Below, one piece after another: positions 35,993 through 42,027 of a stretch of 64,000 nucleotides of DNA (the first letter of the stretch is position 1; each line of letters begins with the position of its first letter). The notes below the pieces were generated by a model. That model saw only the letters and a program-made list of their open reading frames with translations. It was not told the origin of the DNA and did no database searches. The DNA is from Prochlorococcus marinus str. MIT 0917 (GTDB taxonomy: Bacteria; Cyanobacteriota; Cyanobacteriia; PCC-6307; Cyanobiaceae), in contig NZ_CP114784.1 in assembly GCF_027359575.1 (NCBI RefSeq), positions 1,735,819 through 1,799,818 of the forward strand. Reading direction: 5' to 3'. Position numbers and translations under genes: made by a program.

Positions 35993-36103
35993 CTATGCTT
36001 GTTTCCAATCAGAGTCTTCTAGAAGATTTGAATACTCGTTGTAATTAAAAAATAGGTCTTCCTCTAATACTTCTTCCAGAGTGATTCGATTAAAATAATT
36101 CAC
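35993..36103 (-). CDS. Acidic microprotein, 36 residues (paralogue of 35420-35521)
   Basis: MNYFNRITLEEVLEEDLFFN then YNEYSNLLEDSDWKQA. The start is GTG, preceded by GAGGTGAA, a good site lying inside the end of the upstream gene. The stop codon of the upstream gene and this start overlap as GTGA, so translation is coupled. Same fold and charge as its paralogue, with three extra C-terminal residues. Confidence 0.78.
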   Translation of the reverse strand: MNYFNRITLEEVLEEDLFFNYNEYSNLLEDSDWKQA

Positions 36104-36240
36104 GCTTCACCTCGAAAAGGTGAGTTGTAATAAGCCTTGTTAACTGTATAAAGTGTGTAAAGAGATACAGCGATCCCTAAAAAACCTACAACTAGGATTG
36201 GAGAGAATGATGGAAAATCATAAGTAGGAATTGAAGTCAT
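36100..36240 (-). CDS. One-helix membrane protein, 46 residues
   Basis: MTSIPTYDFPSFSP, then a helix (ILVVGFLGIAVSLYTLYTV) and a short tail ending NSPFRGEA. Its TGA overlaps the GTG of the acidic microprotein, so the pair forms a membrane plus acidic-soluble module. Function unknown. Confidence 0.65.
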   Translation of the reverse strand: MTSIPTYDFPSFSPILVVGFLGIAVSLYTLYTVNKAYYNSPFRGEA

Positions 36241-39651: not shown

Positions 39652-39861
39652 ATGACTTCTTCTTCTTCTTCTTCTCAGGTAATCACTGAGTACGGCAAGC
39701 AAAACATCTTTGGCCGTGAAACACAGCCCCAGCTTGTCGAGGATTACACAAGTTATCCAGAAGAAGCAGAAAAGACAAATGGTCGTTGGGCGATGATTGG
39801 CTTTTTTAGTCTTCTCGTTTCTTACTTCACAACTGGTCAAATCATTCCTGGAATCTTTTGA
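39652..39861 (+). CDS. hli: High-light-inducible protein 1 of operon (Hlip)
   Basis: 69-residue one-helix Lhc-like protein. The chlorophyll-binding core EKTNGRWAMIGFF keeps the ExxNGRxAM pattern, and it ends with YFTTGQIIPGIF, the tail typical of multicopy Prochlorococcus Hlips. The N terminus contains six serines encoded by a TCT repeat. The frame is open upstream, but the ATG at 39652 fits the family. Hlips bind chlorophyll and carotenoid, protect photosystem assembly and respond to light and nutrient stress. First of six overlapping hli genes. Confidence 0.92.
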   Translation: MTSSSSSSQVITEYGKQNIFGRETQPQLVEDYTSYPEEAEKTNGRWAMIGFFSLLVSYFTTGQIIPGIF

Positions 39862-40022
39862 CTTCTGAATCACCTTCAGCATCTGGCAACTACGTCAACG
39901 TAGTTGAGAAGTTCAAACCAGAAGACGCCGAGAAAACGAATGGACGCTGGGCAATGCTCGGTATGATCGCTCTACTCGGTGCCTACTCAATAACCCACCA
40001 AATCATTCCTGGAATCTTTTAA
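39858..40022 (+). CDS. hli: High-light-inducible protein 2 of operon
   Basis: 54 residues with core EDAEKTNGRWAMLGM, the full ExxNGRxAM pattern, and tail SITHQIIPGIF. The start is a TTG that overlaps the stop of the preceding hli gene (TTGA), so translation is coupled. One membrane helix. Confidence 0.88.
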   Translation: MTSESPSASGNYVNVVEKFKPEDAEKTNGRWAMLGMIALLGAYSITHQIIPGIF

Positions 40023-40033
40023 AACAATTAATC

Positions 40034-40153
40034 ATGCAACCATCTAACAAAACAATCCTAGAAAGAAGCATCGGCAGACCAGCCATGATGGCATTCGTTC
40101 TATTAACAGGTATCTACCTAACAACCGGTCAACTAATCCCAGGTGTCGTTTAA
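40034..40153 (+). CDS. hli: High-light-inducible protein 3 of operon, short and divergent
   Basis: 39 residues: ERSIGRPAMMAFVLLTGIYL with tail TTGQLIPGVV. Compared with ExxNGRxAM the Asn is replaced by Ile, while Glu and Arg remain. It starts 11 bases after the preceding stop, the only non-overlapping junction in the operon. Confidence 0.85.
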   Translation: MQPSNKTILERSIGRPAMMAFVLLTGIYLTTGQLIPGVV

Positions 40154-40299
40154 TGACTACTCAAAACAACAACAACAGAAACATTGATCCTGAAAAGGTA
40201 ACTGCAGAAAGACTTAACGGCTATGCAGCATTATTTGGTTGCATCGCTCTAGTCGGTGCATATGCAACAACAGGTCAAATCATCCCAGGTTTCGTTTAA
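40153..40299 (+). CDS. hli: High-light-inducible protein 4 of operon
   Basis: 48 residues with core TAERLNGYAALFGC and tail ATTGQIIPGFV. The Arg of ExxNGRxAM is Tyr and the Met is Leu. The ATG overlaps the previous TAA as TAATG. Asn-rich start (QNNNNRN). Confidence 0.87.
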   Translation: MTTQNNNNRNIDPEKVTAERLNGYAALFGCIALVGAYATTGQIIPGFV

Positions 40300-40445
40300 T
40301 GAAAAGTCAAACCACTGAAACGCCAAGATTAGAAGAAGGCAAATTGTTTGCTGAACGACTCAATGGTCTAGCTGCTTCTGTTGGCTGTTTAGCTCTCATT
40401 GGCGCATACCTAACAACCGGTCAAATCATTCCAGGTTTTGTGTAA
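40299..40445 (+). CDS. hli: High-light-inducible protein 5 of operon
   Basis: 48 residues with core FAERLNGLAASVGC and tail LTTGQIIPGFV. The Arg of ExxNGRxAM is Leu and the Met is Ser. TAATG overlap with hli 4 and with hli 6. It is closest to hli 4, suggesting local duplication. Confidence 0.87.
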   Translation: MKSQTTETPRLEEGKLFAERLNGLAASVGCLALIGAYLTTGQIIPGFV

Positions 40446-40570
40446 TGAATAAAGAAACGAATTACTGGAAAACAGCAGAGCAAATGAATGGTCGCCTTGC
40501 GATGATGGGCTTCTTTGCTGCAGTCATTAACTACGGATTCACGGGTTGGATTGTTCCTGGAATTGTCTAG
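40445..40570 (+). CDS. hli: High-light-inducible protein 6 of operon
   Basis: 41 residues with canonical core AEQMNGRLAMMGFF, but a changed tail (FTGWIVPGIV instead of TTGQIIPG). TAATG overlap with hli 5. Last gene before a strong terminator, so the six genes make one transcriptional unit. Confidence 0.88.
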   Translation: MNKETNYWKTAEQMNGRLAMMGFFAAVINYGFTGWIVPGIV

Positions 40571-40593: not shown

Positions 40594-40627
40594 AGCCTCT
40601 CCTTTTATTGCAAGGGAGAGGCTTTTT
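40594..40627 (+). terminator. Terminator of the hli operon
   Basis: Stem AGCCTCTCCTT with AAGGGAGAGGCT (one bulged G), then TTTTTG. It lies 23 bases after the last hli stop codon. Confidence 0.85.
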
Positions 40628-40742
40628 GACTTTAGAAATTAAATACGTATTTTCAAGAGATCGATTAAGACATGATCGTCTACTTAAAACCGAACCTTCG
40701 CTTCTATTGTCGATCTCTTAGCATCTAAGAAATATTTGGACA

Positions 40743-40877
40743 ATGTTTAAAATCTTTCGTACAAAGTGGTTTAAGACCGCGCCAGTAGTCGCAACACTAT
40801 GGCTTTCTAGTACAGCAGTCATCCTGATTGGAGTGAATTATGTTGCTCCCGACTACTTATTTATGCCGATGAGTTAA
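40743..40877 (+). CDS. PsaJ-like photosystem I small subunit, divergent paralogue
   Basis: 44-residue one-helix protein [20 protein letters not shown] ... DYLFMPMS. The N-terminal half ([15 protein letters not shown]) and the PDxLFxPMS end match PsaJ, the photosystem I subunit at the PsaF side of the complex. In ordinary PsaJ the helix ends IEFNRF and the tail reads FHP; those Glu and His are thought to ligate chlorophylls. Here they are Gly30 (ILIGVNYV) and Met41 (FMPM). There is no psaF nearby. It follows the hli operon by 170 bases, and is read as a specialised paralogue, not the main PsaJ. Confidence 0.75.
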
Positions 40878-40933: not shown

Positions 40934-41134
40934 TTGCGAAATTTATTTCTTCTTCCTTTTGCTATCTTGCTGATTGGATGTATCTCATCTGGAGGTGGCG
41001 CTGGAGGAAGCTATCCAGCAGGTTGGAATCCTTATCCACCGGGTAAAGCAGGGGACTACTCTTGCGAGGATGTTGGTAGTAATTCACTTGTTTATTGTGC
41101 CACAGGTGAACATCCGAACTTATGTGATTGCTAG
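40934..41134 (+). CDS. Small lipoprotein, copy 1 of tandem pair
   Basis: 66 residues with a signal peptide ending in the lipobox LLIGC (Cys16), a Gly/Pro/Ser-rich linker and a conserved end YCATGEHPNLCDC. Four cysteines besides the lipid-bearing one (SCEDV, YCATG, LCDC) suggest two disulphides. The TTG start is common to both copies. 46 bases separate it from copy 2. Probably outer- or inner-membrane anchored facing the periplasm. Function unknown. Confidence 0.75.
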   Translation: MRNLFLLPFAILLIGCISSGGGAGGSYPAGWNPYPPGKAGDYSCEDVGSNSLVYCATGEHPNLCDC

Positions 41135-41189
41135 GCTGTGGTCTATTTCTTAAACAGGTGGTTATATATGTGGACGAGCTTTGACACTG

Positions 41190-41381
41190 TTGCGTAATTT
41201 ATTTTTTCTATCGTTAGCAGTATTGCTAACCGCATGCACTAATCACGGTGGAGGTTTTGGATCCTTGCCAAAAGGATTTGCGATGGGTCCAGGGGTTCCA
41301 GAGGAGCGTACTTGTGAAAATACTTCATTCCATGATCACTATTGTGCTACTGGTGAACACCCCAATCTATGTGATTGTTGA
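41190..41381 (+). CDS. Small lipoprotein, copy 2 of tandem pair
   Basis: About 63 residues (a TTG at 41181 would add three). Lipobox LLTAC, then NHGGGFGSLPKG and the same ending YCATGEHPNLCDC as copy 1. DNA identity extends upstream of the start (CTTTGACACTGTTGCG against CTTCGACACTGTTGCG), so the duplication includes the translation start region. The linker has diverged while the cysteine-rich end is nearly fixed. Confidence 0.75.
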   Translation: MRNLFFLSLAVLLTACTNHGGGFGSLPKGFAMGPGVPEERTCENTSFHDHYCATGEHPNLCDC

Positions 41382-41919: not shown

Positions 41920-42027
41920 CTAGAAAATACCTGGGATGAATTGACCAGTTGTTGCATAAGCGCCTATTCCGGCAACGATGCCTATCATCGCCATCAAACC
42001 ATTAAAACGTTCAGCACCAGAATTCAT
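41920..42027 (-). CDS. hli: High-light-inducible protein, minus-strand copy
   Basis: 35 residues, one of the shortest Hlips: MNSGAERFNGLMAMIGIVAG with tail ATTGQFIPGIF. The Arg of the ExxNGR motif is replaced by Leu, while Glu and Asn remain. It is close to hli 4 and 5 in the tail. AAAGAG precedes the ATG by 5 bases. Confidence 0.85.
   Translation of the reverse strand: MNSGAERFNGLMAMIGIVAGIGAYATTGQFIPGIF

Follow-up and report, generated by a model that had tools for sequence, protein, structure and literature searches.

A second psaJ gene of Prochlorococcus, probably related to cyanophage psaJ, encodes a candidate accessory photosystem I subunit with altered chlorophyll-ligand positions

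In a 64,000-nucleotide stretch of Prochlorococcus marinus str. MIT 0917 (GCF_027359575.1, NZ_CP114784.1, positions 1,735,819 to 1,799,818 of the forward strand; hereafter the window), we identified an open reading frame (ORF), here named psaJ2, that encodes a 44-residue relative of PsaJ, subunit IX of photosystem I (PSI), in which two of three chlorophyll-ligand positions are changed. We propose, with a probability of about 0.42, that PsaJ2 is an accessory subunit IX of phage lineage, which would be swapped in beside the single PsaF and would trim the PSI antenna. A single subunit of 44 residues may then tune the energy reaching PSI in a highly abundant phototroph, and a photosynthesis gene would apparently have passed between phages and their hosts, the pigment ligands having changed in the host. 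The proposal also links the little-studied standalone psaJ of phages, found by ndhI and twice with hli genes, to accessory subunits of the host.

Since the product of psaJ2 matches both Pfam PSI_PsaJ (43.8 bits, above the cut-off of 22.4) and the PsaJ chains of solved structures (E as low as 2.8e-7), the ORF is not a chance one, and since it scores 50.5 bits against the NCBIfam equivalog NF002743, below the cut-off of 69, it is a divergent PsaJ relative and not an equivalog. The 44-residue protein aligns to PsaJ with no insertion and, with T. elongatus PsaJ as reference, Glu28 is replaced by Gly30 and His39 by Met41, while Thr22, the third chlorophyll ligand, is retained as Thr24. The passages on PsaJ in PMC7002129 describe Thr22, Glu28 and His39 as the ligands of the three PsaJ chlorophylls in PSI. 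A sequence-only reading of this DNA had proposed a kept PsaJ frame in which Gly30 and Met41 replace the Glu and His to which structures assign chlorophylls, and the T. elongatus alignment, the Pfam match and the described ligands bear this out. Its further statement that both ligands are lost holds insofar as two of the three ligand positions are changed, but is too strong for Met41, as methionine is able to ligate chlorophyll, for instance at the A0 sites of PSI.

The source assembly is a single contig of 1.92 Mb, in which a search with PF01701 gave two matches over the cut-off, psaJ2 and a normal psaJ (...IIVEFNRFVPDLLFHPMSF). The normal psaJ adjoins psaF, which is present once, and psaJ2 is not adjacent to it, so psaJ2 as the sole psaJ of the genome is ruled out, and the normal psaJ next to psaF that the sequence-only reading had proposed to look for is indeed there. 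A weaker third match at ~499 kb (G000:C1; L094 3992-4147) is a second, decayed-looking copy of psaJ2, with an open frame that lacks some residues and Glu at codon 30. We surveyed 41 Prochlorococcus genomes, 17 of them at least 90% complete (G000 being the source genome), and found both Glu and His kept in the psaF-linked PsaJ of 30 of 30 genomes; a Gly/Met change common to all PsaJ of the genus, which would have made psaJ2 an ordinary form, is thereby ruled out. Among 40 psaF-linked PsaJ chosen from other genera of the family, Glu is kept in 40 and His in 35. In the remaining five (L141, L143, L149, L151 and L153) the His ligand is replaced by Leu, Tyr or Phe. The titles and opening abstracts that we searched, with most subscription journals outside the coverage, report no second psaJ in Prochlorococcus.

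Three classes of PsaJ occur in the 41 genomes: the normal form (class 1), PsaJ2 (class 2) and a further form (class 3), which is present in five genomes (G004, G016, G021, G026 and G039) and has Val or Ile in place of Glu, with His kept. The class-3 loci (L033 4835-4978, L042, L050, L096 and L097) encode proteins starting with MKS or MES and group with phage psaJ and PsaJ2. Intact PsaJ2 is found in 12 genomes (G000, G001, G002, G004, G005, G006, G014, G022, G028, G029, G030 and G037), 11 of which also have a normal psaJ; none was found in G037, which is 76% complete. Met41 is present in 12 of the 12 intact copies, with Gly at position 30 in 11 and Ala in one, and Thr24, Asn32, Trp9, Trp20, Pro36-Asp37, Met41 and Tyr38 are invariant over their 11 distinct sequences. 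In a search of 400 genomes of the family, all the matches listed above 55.0 bits to PsaJ2 lie within Prochlorococcus, and the match at 55.0 bits is a psaF-linked PsaJ from another genus. A scan of named genomes yielded ten loci, nine of which are class-2 copies in the AG-402 and AG-311 single-cell genomes of Prochlorococcus. The one remaining locus, a psaF-linked PsaJ of Candidatus Synechococcus spongiarum with Glu and His kept, was not used.

Relatives of PsaJ2 were also found in phages. Among 50,697 phage records searched with PsaJ2, eight marine single-cell virus records (AG-345 and AG-341) matched, seven of them with 66-73% identity over 98-100% of its length; the partial match in AG-341-P01 (H18, 57% covered) and two matches in Microcystis phages (H9-H10, E 7) were left out. 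A search with the class-3 alignment added at least nine IMG/VR contigs with psaJ, and when viral contigs were scanned with the alignment of PsaJ2, eight pattern matches came up, none of them a relative. Glu is kept in all 16 full-length phage PsaJ and His in 15, the AG-345-E15 protein having Leu in its place. Host contamination as the source of the AG-345-E15 record, the only one examined in such depth, is ruled out, as it also carries psbA, a baseplate hub/tail lysozyme gene and a purM match.

Maximum-likelihood trees place PsaJ2 among the phage psaJ as sister to AG-345-E15, with an ultrafast bootstrap of 100 (DNA) and 99 (protein). They comprised 75 distinct rows of 77 for DNA and 58 for protein; Prochlorococcus contributed 15 of its 30 normal psaJ, and other genera 29 of the 40 psaF-linked psaJ, found by one start-motif pattern. 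A clade of PsaJ2, class 3 and phage psaJ is supported by 94 (DNA) and 78 (protein) and one of phage psaJ and PsaJ2 by 85 (DNA), and normal Prochlorococcus psaJ cluster with the psaF-linked psaJ of other genera (98 in DNA, 90 in protein). From these relationships, kinship of PsaJ2 with standalone cyanophage psaJ is more probable than simple paralogy to the host gene. In the approximately unbiased (AU) test, a constraint joining PsaJ2 and class 3 to normal psaJ is rejected (p 0.008), and with it the origin of both accessory classes from one duplication in the host. We regard as quite improbable the alternative that PsaJ2 is a plain duplicate of the host psaJ, with the phage genes convergent or derived from it: the DNA data do not reject a tree in which PsaJ2 alone joins the normal Prochlorococcus psaJ (AU p 0.109), but this tree is 18.6 likelihood units lower, the constraint that includes class 3 fails, and two phage contigs have a similar hli content. 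As to the term paralogue, used in the sequence-only reading, psaJ2 does coexist with a normal psaF-linked psaJ, but a phage psaJ lineage is the more probable source, with host duplication not rejected. Monophyly of the phage psaJ combined with monophyly of the host accessory forms (p 0.406) and a clade of the phages minus AG-345-E15 (p 0.306) are likewise not rejected, and transfer in either direction between phage and host would therefore fit.

The two phage contigs of similar hli content resemble the window in gene content more broadly. L098 holds psaJ, ndhI, counterparts of six hli genes and a counterpart of ORF 36100-36240, and L118 (AG-345-E15) holds a counterpart of the same ORF, four hli counterparts and psaJ. 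A ferredoxin gene also accompanies psaJ, ndhI and hli in L098. More generally, ndhI lies near psaJ in 15 of the 16 phage loci (within ~250 bp or one gene away; among them L117, L102 and L106). One phage NdhI was confirmed by NCBIfam, the label ndhP for a 44-residue neighbour being a guess only, and a cyclic-electron-flow cassette is a possible interpretation of the grouping.

Where psaJ2 is retained, it is retained for its protein and is under purifying selection. Over the 12 intact copies, the pooled ratio of nonsynonymous to synonymous change (dN/dS) is 0.096, with 0.086 for the eight at the site seen in the window (site A) and 0.161 for the three at a second site (site B); normal psaJ (15 sequences) gave 0.050 and phage psaJ (16 sequences) 0.035. 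These figures are descriptive, since the sequence pairs are not independent. Five sequence pairs show 2-7 amino-acid changes, against means of 6.9-17.8 in neutral simulations that kept transitions and transversions at their observed numbers, and counts as low as those observed were reached in 0, 0, 5, 2 and 0 of 3000 simulations. At site A, psaJ2 lies 298-301 bp past the start of hli6 in nine genomes (eight intact, and G020 frameshifted), whereas at site B it stands beside genes for 184 and 56 residues in ten genomes (three intact and seven decayed-looking, G037 being assigned by its upstream neighbours only). In the source genome and G022 the copy at A is intact and that at B decayed; in G037 the decayed copy is again at B and the intact one lies elsewhere. 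The pattern fits relocation or redundancy. The site-B copies of G000 and G037 have GAA (Glu) at codon 30, one transition from GGA, which may be ancestral or a reversal. That psaJ2 is a remnant, a phage psaJ drifting in host islands with no present role, is very improbable in our view: the decayed-looking copies, the absence from some near-complete genomes and the hli-rich surroundings would suit it, but a dN/dS of ~0.1 with a strong deficit of amino-acid changes does not, and each of the three two-copy genomes keeps one copy intact beside the decayed one.

Among known systems, the standalone cyanophage psaJ is closest to psaJ2: it is its nearest neighbour in the trees, is likewise unfused to psaF and, in two contigs, has hli and 36100-type genes near it; it differs in keeping Glu and mostly His, and in residing within virus genomes, mostly near ndhI. 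PMC4511924, in the part that concerns it, credits a single viral psaJ gene to Sharon et al. 2011. The P-TIM68 PsaJF resembles this lineage as a PsaJ form carried by a phage, but is fused to PsaF in a psaJF-C-A-B cassette. The sequence-only reading had suggested looking for the same variant in phage PSI cassettes and, in this one cassette, judged by eye, the variant is not present, the PsaJ part keeping Glu and being without the His end. P-TIM68 PsaJF was absent from the PsaJ2 matches in the phage records, and a PsaJF fusion is ruled out for psaJ2, whose ORF stops after 44 residues. In the passages of PMC3903132 on an engineered virus-like PSI with PsaJF, the pigments of PsaJ and PsaF are given as untraceable and electron-donor docking as the role of PsaF. 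Of the effects that the sequence-only reading had suggested, a changed antenna through replacement of PsaJ is plausible from structures, whereas none of the present results concerns donor docking.

A second PsaJ is also known from far-red light photoacclimation (FaRLiP), and the FaRLiP PsaJ2 resembles that of the window in accompanying a normal PsaJ and in having lost the Glu ligand, as far as the relevant sections of PMC7002129 and PMC10694217 describe it. It differs in being one of six swapped subunits of a chlorophyll f PSI, in an insertion with Tyr40 and in the loss of Thr22; according to those of PMC7002129, Thr22 and Glu28 are gone, His is displaced and the three PsaJ chlorophylls were not observed in PSI. 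The source genome, by contrast, has only one psaF, and its PsaJ2 retains Thr24 and is without an insertion at 39-43 with Tyr40; a FaRLiP isoform is thereby ruled out. The neighbours of psaJ2 are hli genes and small ORFs and not a far-red cluster; second copies of psaA, B, I and L were not searched for. The FaRLiP protein is nevertheless a precedent for a pigment-free PsaJ. A further parallel is the PsaJ of Acaryochloris marina, in which His39 is replaced (Phe49) and the corresponding chlorophyll is missing, the change there being in the PsaJ of purified PSI and not in an accessory copy, according to the sections of PMC8058080 on this subunit. Gloeobacter PSI is also without two PsaJ-side chlorophylls in the corresponding section of PMC9000952, and PSI is therefore functional in their absence.

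In the mechanism that we infer, from the direction of exchange through expression, entry into PSI and pigment loss to the antenna effect, the psaJ2 lineage would have passed between phage and host along with hli genes, and its Glu and His ligand positions would have changed in the host line. Under some condition PsaJ2 would be made instead of PsaJ and take the PsaJ slot by the only PsaF, giving a PSI without the chlorophylls held by the Glu28 and His39 residues, in which the flow of energy from a Pcb (IsiA-like) ring would be weakened with PsaF still bound. Under stress, such as excess light, the PSI antenna would be trimmed in this way. Pcb rings form around Prochlorococcus PSI, and the source genome holds nine genes of the CP43/CP47/Pcb/IsiA family, seven of which are probably Pcb by score, so that a Pcb antenna is possible. 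For the PSI-IsiA supercomplex, the portion of PMC7214436 on this contact places the carotenes of IsiA3 and IsiA4 at 4.6 and 5.8 A from Chl101 and Chl102 of PsaJ and considers that they may pass energy to the core. Since IsiA carotenes approach these two PsaJ chlorophylls, which we infer to be those of Glu28 and His39, the swap would remove entry points of the Pcb ring.

A more far-reaching version, which we consider unlikely, is that several hli genes and psaJ form a domesticated phage cassette for PSI remodelling, with ligand loss selected as a one-subunit switch that detaches PSI from the Pcb antenna and leaves PSI intact; the phage form by ndhI would then support cyclic electron flow in infected cells, and that of the host would be photoprotective. 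The pigments may instead be retuned and not lost, with Met41, together with Tyr38 or a water held by Asn32, binding chlorophyll and shifting site energies, as proposed for Tyr40 of FaRLiP PsaJ2. In favour of this unlikely alternative, Met41 and Tyr38 are invariant in all 12 intact copies, beyond what pure loss needs, and the description in PMC7002129 has the FaRLiP Tyr40 positioned for a hydrogen bond to a neighbouring Chl f; yet the side chain of Gly or Ala at position 30 cannot ligate, and Tyr38 is a substitution, unlike the 39-43 insertion. It is distinctly unlikely that PsaJ2 acts in assembly or repair, holding PsaF during PSI assembly or turnover until PsaJ replaces it, a role for which pigment ligands would be needless: the retained residues are those of the shared PsaJ framework, as such a role would have it, but the invariance of Met41 is left unexplained.

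Several observations count against an antenna-trimming accessory subunit of phage lineage. The trees rest on 126 bases or 42 residues, the inner nodes among phage psaJ have supports of 38-88 in DNA, and neither the grouping of PsaJ2 with normal psaJ mentioned above nor phage monophyly (AU p 0.457) is rejected. One PsaJ2 site might stay occupied, with Met41 holding a chlorophyll. Eight decayed-looking class-2 copies occur (in G018, G020, G023, G031 and G033, and as second copies in G000, G022 and G037), those of G020 and G023 mainly through the loss of one base near the start, with an alternative start possible, and G003, a single-contig genome, has a normal psaJ only; psaJ2 is thus dispensable over evolution. 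Among the 17 genomes with a completeness of 90% or more, nine have intact PsaJ2, three only decayed-looking copies, one class 3 only and three normal psaJ only, and in one no psaJ was found. As to the hli genes, they lie near psaJ in only two of the 16 phage loci and in an order unlike that of the window, the other 14 giving no hli match within the stretch examined, and in AG-345-F15 and AG-345-E02 the best relative of hli6 is 14-16 kb from psaJ. Neighbouring hli and 36100-type genes are thus no defining trait of the standalone phage psaJ lineage. Adjacency to hli is weak evidence of joint function, because these genes are common (up to 22 matches per genome), and psaJ2 is probably its own transcription unit, since a terminator-like hairpin separates it from hli6.

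The features of the region are collected in Table 1. Six hli genes beside psaJ2, as the sequence-only reading had it, lie upstream (39652-40570), and a seventh is found downstream on the minus strand; PHROGs, run on three of the seven hli-type ORFs, matched hli families in all three. The usual chlorophyll-binding motif of hli proteins is ExxNGRxAM. In hli3-hli5 (40034-40445) the motifs are SIGRPAM, RLNGYAAL and RLNGLAAS, with Asn or Arg replaced, and ligand-poor forms thus recur in the cluster.

Table 1. Coordinates of psaJ2 and neighbouring features in the window.
Feature	Position	Strand	Remarks
46-residue membrane-type ORF	36100..36240	-	counterparts 72-77% identical inside phage hli/psaJ cassettes
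hli1	39652..39861	+	ATG at 39652 preferred over 39616; counterpart in phage contig L098
hli2	39858..40022	+	TTG start
hli3	40034..40153	+	
hli4	40153..40299	+	
hli5	40299..40445	+	ATG at 40299
hli6	40445..40570	+	ends 172 bp upstream of psaJ2; 89% identity over 35 residues to hli of P-SSM2 and P-SSM5
terminator-like hairpin between hli6 and psaJ2	40594..40623	+	12 pairs and a run of T; alignable in the seven further site-A genomes with intact psaJ2
psaJ2 leader	40625..40742	+	presumed promoter/5' untranslated region; 95% mean column identity, 8 genomes
psaJ2, 44-residue PsaJ-like protein	40743..40877	+	ATG to TAA; Gly30/Met41 at the Glu/His ligand positions; Thr24 and Asn32 kept
lipoprotein-like ORF 1	40934..41134	+	TTG start; ends GEHPNLCDC
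lipoprotein-like ORF 2	41181..41381	+	TTG start; ends GEHPNLCDC
hli7	41920..42027	-	downstream of psaJ2; counterpart in psaJ-bearing phage contigs L098 and L118

A scan of the region gave two terminator-like sites, against 1.8 in shuffled sequences, and four promoter-like sites, against 5.1; being near the shuffle values, these counts are themselves uninformative, and the hairpin is notable by its 12 pairs and its conservation alone. The psaJ2 leader may form an 11-bp hairpin (z -1.0), whose changes, by eye, are not compensatory, and the sole match in an Rfam search was far under the gathering score. No phage relatives were found in the search made for ORF 41652. ORF 36100-36240 has relatives in 30 phage records, and its phage copy matches phrog_14199. 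Relatives of lipoprotein-like ORF 2 occur in 21 of the 41 Prochlorococcus genomes and in three virus records of the AG-345 series (E 4e-7, 0.01 and 0.2, the latter two weak), in one of which the relative lies ~2 kb upstream of a phage psaJ.
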